This document shows, one piece after another, positions 49,501 through 63,181 of a stretch of 64,000 nucleotides of DNA (position 1 is the stretch's first letter; each line of letters opens with the position of its first letter). The notes below the pieces were generated by a model that worked only from the letters and a program-made list of their open reading frames with translations, made no database searches and was not told where the DNA came from. The position numbers were made by a program, and so were the translations under genes. The stretch spans positions 23,286,153 through 23,350,152 of the forward strand of contig NC_134028.1 of assembly GCF_964204645.1 (NCBI RefSeq), given 5' to 3'. The DNA comes from Tubulanus polymorphus (Eukaryota; Nemertea; Palaeonemertea; Tubulaniformes; Tubulanidae).

Positions 49501-52214
49501 GTTCGGTCGCCTAATTAAACTTGAGAATCGACGGATAACCTTTCACGAAGTCATTCCAGTACCGGCGGTAAATGAACCCTGTAACGCCGCAGAAATATTC
49601 AACATTCCACGCAACAAAACCCCGTTACCTGCCTAGCACATCCCGATACATGTAATACAAAGAAGATACTAACTTCGACATAGTTTCGTTAAGTATTTGT
49701 TGATATAAATATTTCGTAAACTATGCATAAACCGGCACAAAATAACTCTTATAAAACACTTCAACAATCGAGAGAGAGAGAGGGAACGCATAGGTCAGAA
49801 GTATACCAGTACAAAATGATCTGAATTCCACCGGAATACTTTCAATAGACATACCGCATTGGATTGATTTACATTCAGGCACGGATCCACAGGGTCTTTT
49901 TGTGGGCCTTTTACTAGTTTTTTCAGTGGGCATTTTCTGAATGAAACTAATCTACTGCCTTATCAAATAGGATCTTCTCCCATAATCAGCAGAGCAAGGA
50001 TATGTTTTATACTTGGAAATGCTGTTAAGAATGAATATCACCCGCCCAAAATTGCTAATACGCCTCCAAGAATGTATTTTCAAGTATCAAAAATATCCTT
50101 AAATGTGTCACAAGATCTTCGAAACTAGTCGTCTGATCCAACCCTTACATTATTAAAGGTATGTACAGAATCTTTATTAAAAAAAAGGCCACTTACTTCG
50201 GACTAGTATCTTGTACTAGATGTGATAACTCATCTAACGTCGCTGATCGTCCGTGTTTAATCAGTATTCGATCCTCGATCGTCGCGTGGCTGTGTTCGGC
50301 TAACGGCGAGATTTTATCCTCTTGCTCCGCGACGACAGACGGACTCGATTCGCCGCCGTGATACGACGCGGCGATCGGTAACTCTAAATCCAGGGATAGT
50401 CCTTTCGTTGCGGTTCCGCGCATATCGCCCGATGAGTCCGCGCCGTTGTTAAGTCCCGCGTCGTACGCGTCCTTGCCGTTATTATTGCCGTGATTGTCCT
50501 TGACCGCGTCCTGTTTACGCAGACGCCCGACGACCGGGTTGACTAGAGCACGCGGTTTCTCCACCGACTTACTGCGCGGTCGCGCGGCCGCGCGCGCGAA
50601 TTCTTTCACCACCGATTTCTCGTCGCCCGGCGTGCTCGCCACCGAGAATTTACCGGTGTCGTTGAAGTCGTCGGTCGACAATTCCATATCGAGCATCATG
50701 TCGTCGGAATTCAAACTGCAAATACTCGTGCTGCTCGTCAGCGGTATCGAGTCCATCGACGCGAGCGGCGCCGCCGAGAAATACGGACTGCCCGGAATAG
50801 AGTCGGTGTTCAGGGTATCGCCGAATGAACCGCACAACGACACGCGTTTCTTCTTACCGCCCGATTGTTTACGTTCTAAACTCGACGAAATTTCCGCGCC
50901 GTTATTCGTTTGCGGTTCTAAGAAAACCGCGGAATCCGTACTGATATCGGCGTTGTTATTGTTTTCGTTCGCGTCTGCCGCGATCGTAGCCTGCGCTTCC
51001 GATAAATAGTTCGATAAATAGTTCGCGTTCTGTTCCTCAAGTTTAACGCTGACCGTACTACTGGAACCGGAATCGGTCGAGCTATCGATCAGGTTCTCTT
51101 CGCGTGCCTCCTCACACGTCGACACGGCCGCTTGTCCCATCGTCGCCGCCGTTTCCGCGACGCTCTTCTTCGTTTGATGATTGTGATGATGTACTAATCC
51201 GTACATGCGATTGCGACACGTATTCGGCGACGGGTACGGACTGTTGTTCGACGTCGCGAAGTGATTCGTCGGTTTCTTCAAACCGACCGACTTCTTCTCG
51301 CCGGTCGGTTTCGACCCGTAGCCGTACGTCTGATAGGCGCCTCGCGCGTTCGGCAATCGACCCGTCGGTCGAACGTCCGCGTACGTTTTATAACCGGTGT
51401 CCGACGGATCTTTCGTGTCGGTTTTTTTCGCCGGTGTCGAATTCTTGCTGCGCGGACTGGCGGCGGTCGCGCGCGCGTTCATTCCATTCGTCGACTGCAC
51501 TGATCTAGCCGGCGGTGTCGTCGTCGTCTTCGTTGCAGACGGTATTTTATTCTGATAACGACGAGCGCCTGTCGTCGTTGAACATTGATCCGCTTTCAGC
51601 GTTTTGTGAACCTCGACAATGTTGTTGTATTCACCAGAAACAGGTCGTTTCGAAACCGGTCGAAGTTTACTTCCCGTCGATATCTGTGCAGTAGTCGACG
51701 TCTTACTATTATCAGAAGGAATTTCACCGCTATTCAGTTTGTCAGTACTGCTCCGCTTAATACTCTCGCGTTGTCTATTTTTATTCTCATCTGCCGCCGC
51801 TGTTGTTGCTGCCGCTGTTGCTGAAATGTTTTCCGAACTACTACGATTACTACCGATATTATTCATGTTAAATCCGAAACGTTTCGCTTGTTTATTGATC
51901 TGCGTTTGTTTCGTCGTCGATTTATTGCCGTTTTTCGCGTCCAACGATTGGTTGCTGCCGCTGCGGTTCAAACTCGACGAATTCGACGAGACGCTGCCAC
52001 GCGGCGAACCCGATTTCGGACGCGGGATTTTATTCGCCGAATCCGACGGCGTCGGACTCGGGCTGCGGCGCACGGTCGGCGTCGTCGGTCGTTGCATGGC
52101 GATTTTCGACGGGGGTTTCAGGCCCCGATGAGGCTTTTTCAGGTTACTCGAAGGTCCAGGCATCGCGTAAGGCTCGTTTCCGTCCTTGTTCTTGCTCGAG
52201 TAGCATGACCCCAT
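40421..52214 (-). CDS. CCSER: CCSER-like (FAM190) serine-rich coiled-coil protein, complete
   Basis: Eight coding exons on the minus strand: 52214-50197, 48306-48120, 47257-47213, 46067-45921, 45478-45389, 44715-44654, 40989-40941 and 40591-40421. All junctions are GT-AG and phases match throughout, giving 2769 nt and 922 residues. Family evidence: an acidic DDMMLDMEL motif (residues 504-512) after a Ser-rich stretch; MQDVTNVKTMLHKLKRILQD at the end of exon 2 (residues 716-735), matching the vertebrate CCSER1/2 block of the form LQDCTxVKxxLLKxKRxL; and a heptad coiled coil in exon 5 (residues 800-829). Vertebrate CCSER2 is reported as microtubule-associated; the role here is inferred. ATG 52214 is immediately preceded by an in-frame TGA. 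The N-terminus MGSCYS fits N-myristoylation, with Cys4 available for palmitoylation. The C-terminal tail (last three exons) is not recognised. Confidence 0.83.
40649..40901. mobile_element. CAGGGGCGGATC-type MITE in the last CCSER-like intron
   Basis: Ends are CAGGGGCGGATCTAGG and, inverted, CAGGGGTGGATCTAGG. It is 253 bp, flanked by the 5-bp duplication GGGAT (40644-40648 and 40902-40906). It has no coding capacity and sits between coding exons 7 and 8. Confidence 0.85.
41099..41561. mobile_element. CAGTGTTCTC-type MITE in CCSER-like intron 6
   Basis: Perfect 10-bp terminal inverted repeats CAGTGTTCTC and GAGAACACTG, 463 bp apart. AGAGGGG and CCCCTCT follow inside each end. The centre (about 41310-41425) is a strong inverted repeat around a short spacer, with arms containing ATTATCAGCATTGAT. 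No coding capacity. The TIR style resembles hAT elements, but no target duplication could be confirmed. Confidence 0.7.
42439..42866. repeat. Threefold repeat of an ATTGGTCTA-type unit
   Basis: GATTGGTCTAGCGGTGGTCA (42439), ATTGGTCTACGGCTGGTTGC (about 42569) and GATTGGTCTAGAGGTGGTCA (about 42843) lie in the same orientation in CCSER-like intron 6. They may mark the remains of a transposon array. Confidence 0.5.
44105..44430. mobile_element. CAGGGGCGGATC-type MITE in CCSER-like intron 6
   Basis: Left end CAGGGGCAGATCC, right end (inverted) CAGGTGCGGATCCAG. The interior shares a block (GCATTTTGCAGCATTTTCAA and following) with the copies near 35570 and 35910. No target duplication is visible. 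Confidence 0.7.
44959..45088. mobile_element. CAGGGGCCAATTCC-type MITE in CCSER-like intron 5
   Basis: Starts CAGGGGCCAATTCCATAGTC and ends near AAGCCATGACCCAGTG. Internal GGTCTCAA, GGTCTTAAG and GGTCTTAGA repeats are visible. Related in its terminus to the 59113 element. Confidence 0.4.
45389..45478 (-). CDS. CCSER: CCSER-like exon 5, coiled coil
   Basis: A phase 0-0 exon of 30 codons, with acceptor ATAAACAG and donor GTAAGA. It encodes a continuous heptad pattern (LRQQVAQLKLQL, then EREQTIKLLQQQM), equivalent in position to the coiled coil that follows the KRxLQ block in vertebrate CCSER proteins. Confidence 0.83.
46155..46480. repeat. 24-bp minisatellite in CCSER-like intron 3
   Basis: About 14 tandem units of the form CCCACAATAAGAAAGAGAAA plus a few variable bases, with shorter variants at the left end and one short unit near 46362. 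The purine-rich strand is plus. The lack of stops on the other strand creates long spurious hydrophobic open frames. Confidence 0.9.
46480..46680. repeat. Foldback family copy beside the minisatellite
   Basis: The left arm has ATTTCAACATTTC and AATAGTCATCATTAGGAATA. The right arm has TTTAGTCGAAACGTTGAAAT, CCAAGAAACCTTTCG and GTGAGATTTTTTATATCACC. It lies in CCSER-like intron 3. Confidence 0.6.
46924..47156. mobile_element. CAGGGGCGGATC-type MITE in CCSER-like intron 3
   Basis: Ends are CAGGCGCAGATCTAG and, inverted, CAGGCGCGGATCCAG. It is 233 bp with the target duplication TAGGG on both sides (46919-46923, 47157-47161). Confidence 0.87.
48120..48306 (-). CDS. CCSER: CCSER-like exon 2, carrying the family signature block
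   Basis: Acceptor TCTCTCGTAG and donor GTAAGT. The exon encodes residues 673-735, starting basic and Pro-rich and ending with the amphipathic block VKTMLHKLKRILQD that is the most diagnostic CCSER feature. Phase: one base completes the exon 1 codon; the exon ends on a codon boundary. Confidence 0.88.
48590..48672. repeat. Palindromic GTTCCACAGTT element
   Basis: CTCAGTTCCACAGTTGTGAG is mirrored by CTCGGAACTGTGGAACTGGA about 45 bp later. Related single arms occur near 34226 and 42772. Confidence 0.55.
48720..48915. repeat. Foldback element in CCSER-like intron 1
   Basis: The left half has ATCTGTTATTG, TTTTTCTCACG and GAATCCTTCC. The right half repeats them inverted (GGAAGGATTC, CGTGAGAAAAA, AATAACAGTTGTT). 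The spacer contains CATTCGAAAAAAAAAACTC. Confidence 0.7.
49876..50150. mobile_element. Degenerate CAGGGGCGGATC-type MITE in CCSER-like intron 1
   Basis: The left end is CAGGCACGGATCCACAGGG. The interior matches the other copies in inverted-looking fragments (CTTGGAAATGCTGTTAAGAA, GCTAATACGCCTCCAAGAAT). The right end has decayed and its position is approximate. Confidence 0.5.
50197..52214 (-). CDS. CCSER: CCSER-like exon 1, large Ser/Pro/Asn-rich exon
   Basis: One exon encodes residues 1-672, mostly low-complexity and probably disordered: basic Pro/Ser-rich near the N-terminus (residues about 25-90), then Ser/Thr/Asn-rich with Lys/Arg patches, then an acidic LD-rich segment around 504-515. 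It is clearly GC- and CpG-richer than its surroundings, which produces long meaningless open frames on the other strand. The donor is GTAAGT (50196-50191), leaving two bases of codon 673. On the 5' side the sequence TCTCTGCGCAG ending at 52242 is a good acceptor 27 nt before the ATG, so at least one non-coding leader exon probably exists further right. Confidence 0.85.
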
Positions 52215-56652: not shown

Positions 56653-56811
56653 ATGGATTACTATGGACATGGCGGCCATAAAAAACACAAGAAACACAAA
56701 GTGAAAAGTCACCACCGGAGCAGTTCATCATCGTCGTCATCTTCGAGTTCCGACGATGAGCATAAAAGGTGGAAGAAAGAAGAGAAGAAAAAGAAGAAGT
56801 TGATGAAAAAG
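56653..56811 (+). CDS. ANX: Annexin exon 1: His/Lys-rich, Ser11 tract, Lys-rich end
   Basis: 53 codons, [16 protein letters not shown] at the start, then a run of eleven serines, DDE, and a Lys/Glu end with five consecutive lysines. The donor GTAAAT follows AAG on a codon boundary. This very basic leader is not a standard annexin N-terminus. The frame stays open into the intron and the downstream exons share its phase, so it belongs to the gene, although transcript support is needed. Confidence 0.85.
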
Positions 56812-59800
56812 GTAAATTCTTCCATATCTTGGCATGAACTCCAGAACGCTATTTTCCTTGCCTCGAGCCTATGCAGATTATGCATCAATCGAAAAATTTC
56901 AATAAGTTTCAATTTGTCTCTCTTGATGCTAAAATTCTGGGGTGTTTGTTTTAACCAGAATACACTCTACCTATTCTGAAAAAGCTCACTTTGTAAACCT
57001 AATAGAACGGGCCGGTAGAGAGTTTCTAATCCGGAATTTATGATCCTAAACGGGAATCGGCTCAATCGAAACGTCTTGCCTCAGTTAGTATATCAGGCCT
57101 AACTCTGATTTTAACGCAATTTTATTGATTTTATTGTAGGGATTACTACCACCAGGGGGACAGGTAAGAACAATGTTTATTGTATTAATGAATTCAATGT
57201 CATTAGATTTCTTTCATCGTTCATTCTGCTTGAATATCGCTTGAAACACTTCAACTGCCAAAATAGCCATATATGGTGCTAAATACAGTCAAACTCACAT
57301 ACCGGGTAAGTTGTCAAGACAAGTCAGTTGTCAGTGATCTATCTATCGATGAAATGTTACTGAAAAAAAATTCAATTTTGTAATTTGTTACTGATAGCAC
57401 TTTTCAGTGGTTGGCAGCCCTGGTCACAACTGCAACGACTTTAAAAAAAGCCAATTTGACTGTATTTCCAGTTGAAGTGTTTCTTATCTAAACTCGCTGC
57501 TATTCAAATCATTATTGTCATTTCATAGGCCTATCCTGTTCAAACTGGATATCCTTACGGTCAGGTATGTTTTGAATGTGTGTGTGTGTGTGCGCATGTG
57601 TTGTTTAGAGTAAAACCCTGTATAGCTGCCTTTCGTTTGGCTGACCGAGTCAACTGATGAATCACAATATCCGTGATGAAACAATAAATGTGAAATCCCA
57701 CAATTGTTGAAAGACTGAAAGTTTATTTAGAATACTAGAAATAACCACCCTTCTTCGGTCTAAAAATTATACGTCAAATAAGCACACAGTGTATAAATGT
57801 AACATATCAGTTAAGACACTGATCTTTGGAAATGTGTGCTGCGTTGGCTGTCTTTTCATATTTACGATAATTTGGTATCAGACGCGGAAAAAGCAACGTG
57901 AAGAATTTCAAAACAAATTGAAAATCTGTGGGTAGGATGATGAATCAGTAAGCAGCTGATGTAACTGACACTTCGTTCAGTCCATCATTATCTCAATCAA
58001 ACGGATTCAGTCACAATCAATATGGCTGAACCCAGTAATTAGTAACTCATACGGAATACTGCACATATTCAACTGACCCCAGAACTGGTTCTGAGTTGTC
58101 TATCAAGGATTCTGAGTTGACTCGGTCTACCAATCTAACACAGCTTATATGTATCTTGTTGCATGTTTTCCCCTACAAATCTATTGCCTGGATTTTTTAA
58201 GGGTCTGAATCACTGTTTGATGATTTGTGTATGATGTATTTCAGACAGGATATCCTACTGGAACTCATCCACCTCCACCCGGAGGACCTGGTGGATACCC
58301 TCAAGCTGGTGTCCCCGGATACCCTCCGCAAGGAGGAGCTTATCCCCCACAGGGCGCGGGATACCCTCCTCAGGGTGGGGCTTATCCTCCGCCGCCGCAA
58401 GGTGGAATGCCCGGTGGATACCCACCTCAAGGTAATTATGGCATAAGAATTAGGCATTTTTGCTACCAATGGTATTTTTCCTGAAGATTATTGATTTACT
58501 TTCATTTCTAGGTGGTTATCCCGGTTACCCCGGTGGACCCCCACCACAAGGAGCACCACCGTTTACTGCTCCTCCAGGCGGTATGCCTCCAGGTGGAGCA
58601 CCACCATTCACCGCGCCTCCACCAGGACAGCCGGGTTACCCATACCCTCAATGTAAGTCTTCCGATTACACTCTTTTTTTGCTAACATGATATTCCTTAA
58701 AGTAAGCATCCAAAATGATTACTTTAAGGATATTACTTATTTGTTATTATTCCAGTATTGCTTATTATTTAGATCTAATGCTTTTCATAGAACTAACTTC
58801 ACTATTGTCATTCATTACGGGTGTTGTCCAATGCTGGTAGCGTTTCAAATAGTGTTATTCTGATCATTCAGTTAATAAATGTTGTTTCCATTCCTTTTTT
58901 GAACACTGAATCACGCCATGCTTTTGATAAATATCTGTATGTAGTGTTTTATAGCTTCCTAGTCAGCAACCCGATCGTGGTTTAGTTTCATGATCGGTTA
59001 TTTTCACAAACCACACAGTTGGTGTAAGCTCATCCGATTATGAAAGCTTACCACAAACGATAAGTTCACTAACTTAGTTCGTCACTTAGTCACTAGCTTA
59101 GTACCTAGACATCAGGGGCCAGTTGCTCAAAAGTTGGTTAAAGATGACGGGCGGATGAATACTAACGATGTACTTTTAATTGTCACTATGTCAACTATCT
59201 ACTGGTAAATTCTAACAAACTTTTGAACAACTGGCTTCAGAATGTGACCATTTTGCACGTAGCTTTAATATTTTTTCACTCAATGGAAAGGTTTGTCATC
59301 GAATATATAATTATATATGTATCCTAACTCATGAGCTTTCCTGATGGAAGAGTATTAGAGAAAAGTACGATATTTCTATTGTAAACTCAATAAAACCCAT
59401 TTGGATGTACAGTAAACCTCACCTTACGCGGACATGGCCAACTTGGACCAAACCGAAATAATTTTTGTGATTTCCTAATCTTTCCTTCAACTCGGACTTC
59501 ACTTACCTCGGACCGGTCCCAGTTAGTCCGAGTTAGGCGATGTTTACTGCGGTGTTTAAAACATTAGTCACTGACGTAGTGATTTTATGTTTATTTTCAG
59601 ATGGTCCGAGGTGATGATGACACGTATACCGAGACGAACCTTTCCTATGCTTAAATTTTACATTAATGTCTGCCTTTCACTCTTTATATATATATATGAA
59701 ATACATGATTTTTCTGTGATGTCGATCGAAAGTTTTTTCGTGTAAAAATTGTTATTATTATCATTATTATCATTGATATTATTATTTATCACGTAAGCGC

Positions 59801-62800
59801 TGTTAGAATAAACAAATAAATTAAATGAGGTCAGTATGTGCTAAAAAGCTATTCATCTTTACTTAAAGCTACAAAATTATTATACACATAGTACATTAGT
59901 TCATTTGTTTTATAAATAAATTGAAAATATTCGTATATTTGAATTTAGTTTTTTTTCGTACATTTGATTGTGTTTATTAGGAATGTTCTTTGACAGTTCT
60001 AACCCACCCCTTATATTGCTTCCTGTACCGGTAAATGCACGTAAATCTAGATACTATGTTGCAATGCATGGTTCAAGTTTTAAAAATACCTGTGTTAGCA
60101 TTTCACTGTTAGAAGTTGCTCACCTCTGAAAGGAACAAAGATATTTTCTTCACCATAGGGTAAGCCTCGAATTGATGAATAATAGAAAGTTACAATATAA
60201 TCACCAGTTTTCATTGAGATATGTTTTACAGAAATAAAGTTATGTATCAAGTCTTACAGAAATTGTCTTCTGCCTACTTCAGTACACCTGACATGATTTA
60301 TACAATTTATGAAGATTAACACATGTTTATCGATCGTTCAACTCAAACTGATAACTTATTATATTTGGTAACCGTTAACTGCTTCACTTCTTAGATACAG
60401 TAACATTTCATATGTCGCTTGATTCACTACGGATATAGAATGCTTTTTCAGCGCTTGTATATTTATCTTAAAATAGCCGGTGTACCGCCACCTTATACAG
60501 CAGCTTACGATAGTTCTGGCCCTAACTATGGTTCTACGGCTTATGGTGCACCGCCAGGTATGTCACAACCTGGTGGTGTCTATAATCAACCGTATCAACC
60601 TCCACCAGGACAGAATATCAGTCCATACGGTAACTATAGTCAATTCTATGAATCTCTTTATCATTATAGTTGTATGTTATATGTCATCGAAAAATATGTG
60701 TCCATATCGCGTGCTTGATTTATATTTCGAACGGTTTTATTTCAGCCCAAGTTGGAGGGATTGGTGCCCCATCCCAGCAAGTGCCAGTGGGTTACCCAAA
60801 TCAGCCACCGCAAGCTTCGGGTTATCCCGGAGGTCCACCTGGGCACCCTGGAGGCCCACCTGGACAGCCCGGTGGTCCACATCCAGGCCAACCTGGAGGT
60901 CCACCTCCAGCTGCGACGGGTAAACCACAGGTGAATTGAACTTTTAGCTCAACTGTGGTCAGCTCTTTAAAAAAACTGTAAAAAATAAGTTTTTAAATCA
61001 TGAAAATGTGTGAAAAATTCAAGAAGAATGTCTGTCAAAATATTTTCTGATCCCTTTTTTTCATATACCATGGAATATACCTCAGAATTTATGCACACAT
61101 TGTGTTTAGGAAATGTTATTGTCCAAATTGTGATCAGTAATCGCTTATGTTATTGTGCATAAAACAACTGTCTTCTTCTTAAGGGTGGAATGGATCCTAA
61201 TGTGGCTGGAGCGACTGCTATGGTTGGAAAAATGCAGATTTATGGCGAACAATTTGTTGGCACAGTATTTCCAGTGCAAGGTTTCAACGTTGAGAAAGAT
61301 GCTGAAATACTAAGAGCTGCTATGTATGGAGCGGGTAGGTGTCACTAGTTTGATAGTGCAGCAGTTTTGCTATTATTTCACTAATTTCACTATTTATTTG
61401 AAGGAACCGATGAACAAGCCATAATTGATGTCGTGAGCAAACGTTCAAATCAGCAACGACAAGCTATTAAGAAGACTTTCAAAACAATGTATGGAAAGGT
61501 CAGTTTTTACTGGTAAAGTTTAGGGACTGATTTTATTGACTGGTATTTTCCTTAACTCGAGTGTTATCTCAATTGAAGTATTGATATCATTCTTTAAAAC
61601 AGGGCCCAGGAATTTCTCCTTTGTTGATGATTAAGCTTTATCTATAAAACATTATATCCCTTACTTTTTGTCTAGGATTTGATAAAAGATCTTAAGTCTG
61701 AATTGAGTGGAGACTTTGAGGAAGTGATATTAGCATTGTTCGAGCCTACAACATTTTACGACGCTTGGTCTCTGCGGAAAGCGATGCAGGTATGTCTCTC
61801 TTAGACATCCCCTTAAACATGACCCGTACCGGGTATTTTAAAACGGAATATGAATGTTTTTTTTCTAAATGTATGTCCAGGGTGCTGGCACTGCTGAGGG
61901 CGTTCTTATTGAAATATTGTGCACACGAACCAATGAGGAAATTCGAGAAATCATCGAATGCTATAAACACAGTAAGAAACCCTGATATGACCTCTGCAAC
62001 TGGAATAAGAAGTTATGTGAATTGTTAGTCTTATTTCTATATCTATTTTCAAGAACTTGGACGTGACTTGGAGAAAGATATAGTCAGCGAAACTAGTGGT
62101 CACTTCAAACGTTTACTCGTGTCTTGTTGCCAGGTAAAAATCAATTGGAATACCTGTGTATGTTGAAAAATATCTGTGTAGAATACTTTGATGATATTCT
62201 TGTATGTAATTTCTCAGGCTAATCGCGCTGAATTGACACCCGCCGATTGGGAGAAGGTCTTCAAATCCGGGCCCCAGTCGGTTATAGACAGAGATCTAGC
62301 CCAAAAAGAAGCTCAACAATTGTTTGAAGCCGGTGAACAGAAACTGGGAACAGACGAATCGACATTCCTGCGTATAATGGCTATTCGACATTTCTATCAA
62401 CTTCGAGCGACATTTGAGGAATATGCTCGGGTAGGCCTGATAGATTTTCATCTGACAATAGCACAAAACTGGGTCGTCTTTTAGACTGGCAACTGATAAA
62501 ATCAAAACTCACTACATGAAAATTTAAAGATTACAAGCAAAATTTATTCATCAAAGGTTAATTCAAAAAATTGAAAGATACAATGTTTCAGACTTTCTCT
62601 AGCTCACAATGATTGATTGTGGCTACTTTTCTGAAATTTCTTCATTCACAATCGCAGCTATTGTGTCTAATAATCGCTTGTTTTGTAGATTTCTGGTCGA
62701 GATATTTTAAATTCGGTTTCACGCGAGATGTCTGGTGACTTAAAGGAAGGATTTGAAGCATTGAGTAAGATTTATATTTACAAAAAGATATAGCAAGAGT

Positions 62801-63181
62801 TCGTCGATGGTTCCATGACAAAATACTTATGTTGTTTATGTTTTTAGTTACGAGCGCAAGAAACCGACCGCAATATTTTGCTGATAAACTCTACAAAGCA
62901 ATGAAAGGAGCTGGTACTAATGATTCTGCCCTTATTAGAATCATTGTTTCAAGATCTGAGGTAAGAAAATGATTACAAATAGGATAAAGAATGATATGAA
63001 TTCTTGGCTTTATGTCTCTTTACATTGTTATGTCACTGTATTGCTTTGATTTCAGATCGATTTGAAGAATGTAGCCGACATATTTCTGCAGAAATACCAG
63101 AAAACTTTGTGGAAGATGATTGAAGGTGATACAAGTGGAGACTATAAACGCATCTTACTGGCAATTGTTGGGAATGCATAA
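56653..63181 (+). CDS. ANX: Annexin with long Pro/Gly/Tyr-rich N-terminus (A7/A11-like plan), complete
   Basis: Sixteen coding exons: 56653-56811, 57140-57163, 57529-57564, 58245-58431, 58512-58652, 60477-60629, 60746-60930, 61184-61334, 61404-61498, 61676-61789, 61881-61971, 62054-62133, 62218-62430, 62689-62764, 62848-62960 and 63056-63181. All are GT-AG and in phase, giving 1944 nt and 647 residues. Residues 1-53 are His/Lys/Ser-rich; about 54-320 are Pro/Gly/Tyr/Gln-rich with GYPPQGG-type repeats; 321-647 form four annexin repeats. Type II calcium loops: GAGTD (344-348), GAGTA (416-420, Asp replaced), LGTD (515-518) and GAGTN (589-593). The C-terminus [16 protein letters not shown] is typical of annexin A7/A11. 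The protein should bind acidic phospholipids in a calcium-dependent way; the N-terminal region resembles those that drive condensation in A7/A11. Confidence 0.96.
58245..58652 (+). CDS. ANX: Annexin exons 4-5: GYP repeat region
   Basis: Exon 4 (58245-58431) and exon 5 (58512-58652), separated by an 80-bp intron, encode residues 74-182: [19 protein letters not shown]-type repeats and a tandem GAPPFTAPP pair. Exon 5 ends after one base of a codon (donor GTAAGT), a phase compatible with both exon 6 (60477) and the alternative last exon (59601). Confidence 0.9.
59113..59240. mobile_element. GGGGCCAGTTGCTCAAAAG-type MITE in annexin intron 5
   Basis: The left end CAGGGGCCAGTTGCTCAAAA is mirrored by TTTTGAACAACTGGCTTCAG on the right, giving about 128 bp with imperfect TIRs. 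Confidence 0.6.
59410..59549. mobile_element. Tigger/pogo-like MITE in annexin intron 5
   Basis: Ends CAGTAAACCTC and, inverted, CAGTAAACATCGCC, 140 bp long, with internal inverted GGACC/ACTTGG blocks. TA is present on the left only. It ends 51 bp before the alternative terminal exon of the annexin gene. Confidence 0.65.
59601..59840 (+). CDS. ANX: Alternative terminal exon of the annexin gene (short isoform)
   Basis: TTTATTTTCAG is a strong acceptor at 59600. Spliced to exon 5 (one base of codon carried over), the exon reads Tyr-Gly-Pro-Arg then TGA (59612-59614), continuing the Pro/Gly/Tyr composition exactly. About 200 bp later come AATAAA at 59807-59812 and 59815-59820. The predicted short protein is 186 residues: the basic Ser-rich leader plus the GYP repeat region with no annexin core. 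The right limit is approximate. What else it could be: a chance acceptor in an intron; transcript 3' ends would decide. Confidence 0.6.
59807..59820 (+). promoter_or_regulatory. Two polyadenylation signals for the alternative annexin terminal exon
   Basis: Two AATAAA hexamers eight bases apart (59807 and 59815), downstream of the TGA at 59612 and still inside intron 5 of the long form. Confidence 0.5.
61184..63181 (+). CDS. ANX: Annexin core exons 8-16
   Basis: These nine exons encode residues 296-647. The core begins at [19 protein letters not shown] (residues 321 onward), the classic annexin repeat 1 entry. Repeat 2 begins in exon 11 (GAGTAEG), repeat 3 in exon 13 (KLGTDES) and repeat 4 in exon 15 (MKGAGTNDS). 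Introns are 69-400 bp, much shorter than those of the N-terminal half. Confidence 0.96.

Follow-up and report, generated by a model that had tools for sequence, protein, structure and literature searches.

Does intron 5 of the annexin gene studied here contain an alternative last exon, which would free the Pro/Gly/Tyr-rich tail of the protein from its annexin core, or does it contain a stretch that only resembles one? The question comes from an original prediction in which splicing from position 58652 to 59601, followed by cleavage near 59835, would produce a free tail of 186 amino acids. We examined the locus in the window, which is the whole 64,000-nt stretch of DNA that was analysed; positions are those of the window, on the forward strand, except where another sequence or strand is named.

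The Annexin Gene and Its Long-Form Product

An intact annexin gene occupies positions 56653-63181, with 16 exons that encode 647 amino acids, and 15 of its 15 introns are GT-AG. In a Pfam profile search, the long-form product matched PF00191 in four stretches (E 1.3e-94), giving the four annexin repeats that mark it as a member of the annexin family, and its long Pro/Gly/Tyr-rich N-terminal tail is of the kind found in A7/A11-type annexins. In the gene model, exon 1 (56653-56811) contains the start codon and is H/K- and Ser-rich. It is followed by exon 2 (57140-57163), exon 3 (57529-57564), the Pro/Gly/Tyr-rich exon 4 (58245-58431), in which a motif scan located an 11-residue match fitting the ALG-2-type motif, and exon 5 (58512-58652), which ends in phase 1 at the donor aat/gtaagt (the slash marks the exon boundary). 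The product of exons 1-5 is at first H/K- and Ser-rich, and then continues as a Pro/Gly/Tyr-rich tail. Intron 5 (58653-60476) is 1824 nt long and leads to exon 6 of the long form (60477-60629), and exons 7-16, which with their introns span 60746-63181, supply the remaining tail, the annexin core, and the stop. Elsewhere in the window, a 673-aa open frame on the reverse strand (50193-52214) has no Pfam match at E 0.001.

Signals and Predicted Product of the Candidate Exon

A strong unannotated splice acceptor, gattttatgtttattttcag (59581-59600), lies within intron 5 directly before 59601, with A as the next base. It looks functional and stands in a compatible frame, as would be expected for an alternative terminal exon. 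The candidate exon itself (59601-59840) completes a Tyr codon, adds Gly-Pro-Arg, and reaches a TGA at 59612-59614, after which the sequence is UTR-like. Of the six AATAAA in intron 5, two (59807-59812 and 59815-59820) follow this stop, and a GT-rich stretch is found 3′ of the pair. Exon 5 ends in phase 1, and the junction 58652-59601 keeps the joined frame open as ...PYPQ-YGPR-stop. The predicted product is exactly 186 aa long, with a pI of 9.76 and 12 Ser, 39 Gly, 45 Pro and 17 Tyr residues, and it matched no Pfam family at E 0.001. The matching phase, the stop with two AATAAA, and the basic, Ser-rich, GYP-repeat product of 186 residues that had been predicted were all borne out at the level of the sequence. 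The four-residue end had also been taken as in keeping with the repeat composition of the tail; its sequence is as claimed, but YGPR is too short to count as evidence.

Strength of the Acceptor

Acceptors were scored with three models, built from the gene’s own 15 acceptors (leave-one-out), from 23 sites of other annexin genes in the genome, or from both site sets combined. An automatic procedure picked the 23 outside sites by their position and phase, with no check by hand, and two of them overlap; 14 sites in array copies B and C, described below, were excluded from the models. As background we used the 167 unannotated AGs in the gene’s introns, with the candidate counted and the first 30 nt of each intron excluded. 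The candidate acceptor ranked 1st of the 167 under all three models, in agreement with the strong acceptor that had been proposed. With a score of 9.81 it exceeded 14 of the 15 real acceptors under the own-gene model, and it exceeded 12 and 13 of the 15 under the outside-site and combined models, respectively. The exon 6 acceptor, with which it would compete, was the weakest of the 15 in every model. The strength of the candidate acceptor, together with the weakness of the exon 6 acceptor, is the best support for the idea of an alternative last exon, under which the short form would be chosen when the exon 6 acceptor is outcompeted.

Another acceptor precedes 60452, just 5′ of exon 6 (60432-60476). 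It scores 3.9 and is in frame to a stop, and by eye its layout is common to copy B1 of the downstream array. This site is an in-house example of a coincidental acceptor-plus-stop.

Chance Expectation of the Complete Set of Signals

A complete set was defined as an acceptor with an in-frame stop and an AATAAA within 240 nt. An acceptor as strong as the candidate’s appeared in 21% of 500 dinucleotide-preserving shuffles of intron 5, and 4% of the shuffles contained a complete set; when the acceptor threshold was lowered to a score of 5, a complete set was present in 45% of the shuffles. Real sequence was represented by 322 kb-strand, comprising window positions 1-56000 and 12 neighbouring or annexin loci, on both strands and with true exons included. 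This background contained 11, 32 or 5 complete sets depending on the model, equivalent to 0.034, 0.099 or 0.0155 per kb-strand. The corresponding expectation is 0.03-0.18 complete sets for the 1,824-nt intron 5, unadjusted for the many introns that were looked through in making the original prediction, and 0.07-0.46 across the gene’s 4,585 nt of introns. Among the candidate’s signals, only the acceptor is notable against chance. Any acceptor can be expected to run into a stop after a short distance, and we give almost no weight to the stop or to the four added residues. The whole package is not rare, and chance suffices to explain the candidate exon; an expectation of this size, which is not small, counts against an alternative last exon.

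Donor-Like Sites and a Possible Stop-Containing Cassette

The terminal exon had been described as complete. Its acceptor, frame, stop and AATAAA are present as described, but the stretch also contains three donor-like sites, after 59741, 59792 and 59829; those after 59792 and 59829 would fit a cassette exon too, which weakens the case for a last exon. The first of these sites scores 5.73. The second, a possible donor cac/gtaagc (59793-59798) inside the candidate exon, has its exon side ending at 59792 and scores 6.47, and the third, a possible donor gag/gtcagt (59830-59835) at the predicted cleavage region, has its exon side ending at 59829 and scores 8.49. Because all three fall inside the range of the gene’s real donors (3.2-12.3), a stop-containing cassette is about as well formed as the terminal exon. 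A poison cassette between exons 5 and 6, covering 59601-59792 (192 nt) or 59601-59829 (229 nt), would combine an in-frame stop and a donor with the same acceptor evidence that favors the last exon. The stop would then direct the transcript to nonsense-mediated decay and lower the annexin dose, and no short protein would accumulate. However, comparable donor-like sites are common in intron 5, where 6 of the 20 listed GT sites scoring at least 2 score at least 6.4, and the exon is not kept in the duplicates described below; judged from these features of the sequence, a poison cassette seems quite improbable. An in-frame internal microexon is dismissed, since the first GT gives an exon of only 10 nt (59601-59610) and the frame into exon 6 is broken.

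Repeats in Intron 5 and Genome-Wide Searches

Much of intron 5 in this gene, hereafter copy A, consists of repeats. A dispersed repeat at 58960-59074 recurs at four other sites with 72-89% identity, and a palindromic, MITE-like dispersed repeat at 59110-59245 has dozens of matches (81-88%) among the 40 of 2431 candidates that were scored, many of which align with the reverse strand as well, at about 70-75%. A probable small transposon, recognized by its inverted ends by eye, lies at 59411-59551, 49 nt 5′ of the candidate exon; matches of 34-47 bases to the right end by itself occur at four places.

In a search of the 268-Mb assembly (77 contigs), the DNA of the candidate exon matched itself, copy C of the downstream array, and low-complexity places only. 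A search with the whole of intron 5, in which 40 of 2431 candidates were scored, added only repeats and array copies, and among the matches listed in the genome there was no second complete copy of the candidate exon. A profile search with PF00115 detected no mitochondrial gene in the assembly. A processed genomic copy of the short transcript would have shown that the exon is used, and we therefore searched for one; a 30-base pattern spanning the junction, with at most 3 mismatches, was not found in the genome.

The genome also contains further annexin genes, at G000:C4:23387811-23390849, C4:7993663-7996820, C6:5249285-5251471 and other places. A GYGQPP-rich tail lies near one of the C4 genes, and the C6 gene has an H/K/S-rich stretch that resembles exon 1 of the window gene.

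Downstream Duplicates and Conservation

Partial annexin copies form a tandem array just past the end of the window on G000:C4, comprising B1 (L009 about 52-2011), B2 (L009 3852-8215) and C (L009 9089 to L010 5086). No matches to exons 1-2 were found in B1, B2 or C, and the candidate exon is kept in 0 of the 3 duplicates, an observation that stands against its use as a last exon. In B1, the counterpart of window 58853-60254 is missing, and exon 5 is followed by GA in place of a GT donor, which gives an in-frame TGA right after PYPQ (L009 861-880). No annexin core was found in B1 before the start of B2, and B1 looks like a decaying fragment. Its TGA falls at the point where the short form proposed for copy A would diverge from the long form. 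In B2, exon 5 is fused directly to exon 6 (L009 4888-5373) and carries 66-bp units in tandem that encode GGNYGSTPYGAPPGMAPQGAPP-like repeats; because exon 5 continues straight into exon 6, intron 5 is gone. B2 and C each have a possible new first exon, ATG/gtaagt, at L009 3852 and about 8889, respectively. The joined tail of B2, in five exons, reads open and begins MAYPPPTGYPYGQ; in C, the possible first exon was joined to exon 3 only by eye.

The match of copy C to copy A resumes at 59615 and ends at 59759, leaving out the acceptor, the four codons, the stop and both AATAAA. Identity over this piece, 82% across 145 columns with gaps, looked encouraging at first as a sign of selection, but without gaps the value is 115/134 (85.8%), level with that of the adjoining intron 5 (201/235; 0.855). 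For other segments of C and A, with limits set by eye, the values were 147/166 (0.886) for exon 4, 120/140 (0.857) for exon 5 and 68/80 (0.850) for part of intron 3, and they were lower for intron 4 (59/79; 0.747) and intron 7 (173/235; 0.736). Since identity in the kept piece is on a par with that in the adjoining intron 5 and in intron 3, and exceeds only that in introns 4 and 7, we drew no support for selection from the piece, and its failure to exceed the adjoining intron is a further point against an alternative last exon. The comparison suggests no clear excess conservation, and weak constraint could be hidden in 134 bases of one copy. Copy C has also lost the greater part of exon 6, and rearrangement may have gone too far in the duplicates for them to test conservation fairly.

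Discussion

From the signals, their scores, and the absence of the exon from three duplicates, we infer that the candidate’s signals are not used, and that the stretch is probably a cryptic exon of good appearance. This reading is drawn from the rates of equally strong acceptors (21%) and complete sets (4%) in shuffled sequence, the rate of complete sets in real sequence, the loss from every duplicate, the similarity of the piece kept in C to the intron beside it, the presence of six AATAAA in one intron, and genome searches that listed neither a second complete copy of the exon nor a copy of the junction. In a T-rich, repeat-invaded intron of 1.8 kb, a strong acceptor would have arisen with a stop and AATAAA close behind it, exon 5 would normally be spliced to exon 6 to make the 647-aa annexin, and the candidate stretch would be used at most as low-level noise. 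Against a cryptic exon we counted the rank of the acceptor, the weak exon 6 acceptor, the GT-rich stretch, and the identity of the piece in C above that of introns 4 and 7. The first three of these would be expected of a terminal exon that is used and regulated.

An alternative last exon is, in our estimation, unlikely, despite the strength and phase of the acceptor, the AATAAA pair, and the weak exon 6 acceptor that speak for it. If it were used, the free tail could join condensates or bind partners of the tail without membrane contact, and in this way dilute or buffer the long form. The case shows that a terminal exon can look complete in an AT-rich intron and still weigh little unless RNA or cross-species data back it, and a cryptic exon remains the reading that we prefer.

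Comparison With Known Systems

Isoforms produced by intronic polyadenylation with a skipped terminal exon have an intronic acceptor, an in-frame stop and an AATAAA. The candidate exon shares this layout of signals at the level of genomic sequence. Among the matches listed in the literature, no annexin with intronic polyadenylation or an alternative last exon was evident. The function proposed for a free tail is plausible, given the condensation of human ANXA11 1-185, the ALG-2-type motif, and the N-terminal splicing of ANXA7; it appears biochemically reasonable, which is not proof of the isoform itself.

In ANXA7 (synexin), a cassette exon gives rise to a 47 and a 51 kDa form with different N-terminal domains (PMC1087847). 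The likeness to the present gene is alternative splicing inside a long N-terminal domain on the same general annexin build, and the difference is that the mammalian event described there is a cassette exon, with 3′-end variation in the untranslated region (PMC1087847). Proteins of the ALG-2-binding group, annexins A7 and A11 among them, are described with the sequence PPYP-X3-5-YP, in which PXYP or XPYP may stand, and the same source calls the exact binding sites of this group still to be identified (PMC2927601). The candidate tail has one match of this type in a motif scan, at residue 97 and of the form PXYP-X5-YP, which we counted in favor of an alternative last exon.

A further comparison is with residues 1-185 of human ANXA11, which are reported to phase-separate alone, with stress-granule entry below that of the full-length protein (PMC6890474), and this behavior also lends support to an alternative last exon. 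The two tails are of similar length and low-complexity character, whereas the ANXA11 piece is described as a cut construct and not as an isoform that occurs naturally (PMC6890474). The candidate tail, unlike ANXA11 1-185, also starts with an H/K- and Ser-rich stretch. It is a doubtful proposal that a natural free low-complexity annexin tail is made by intronic polyadenylation and tuned by the strong intronic acceptor versus the weak exon 6 acceptor, in which case it would enter condensates or sequester tail partners such as ALG-2 homologues, free of membrane tethering. If transcribed, such a tail would be nature’s equivalent of the cut ANXA11 tail used in condensate work, joining granules without tethering them to membranes.
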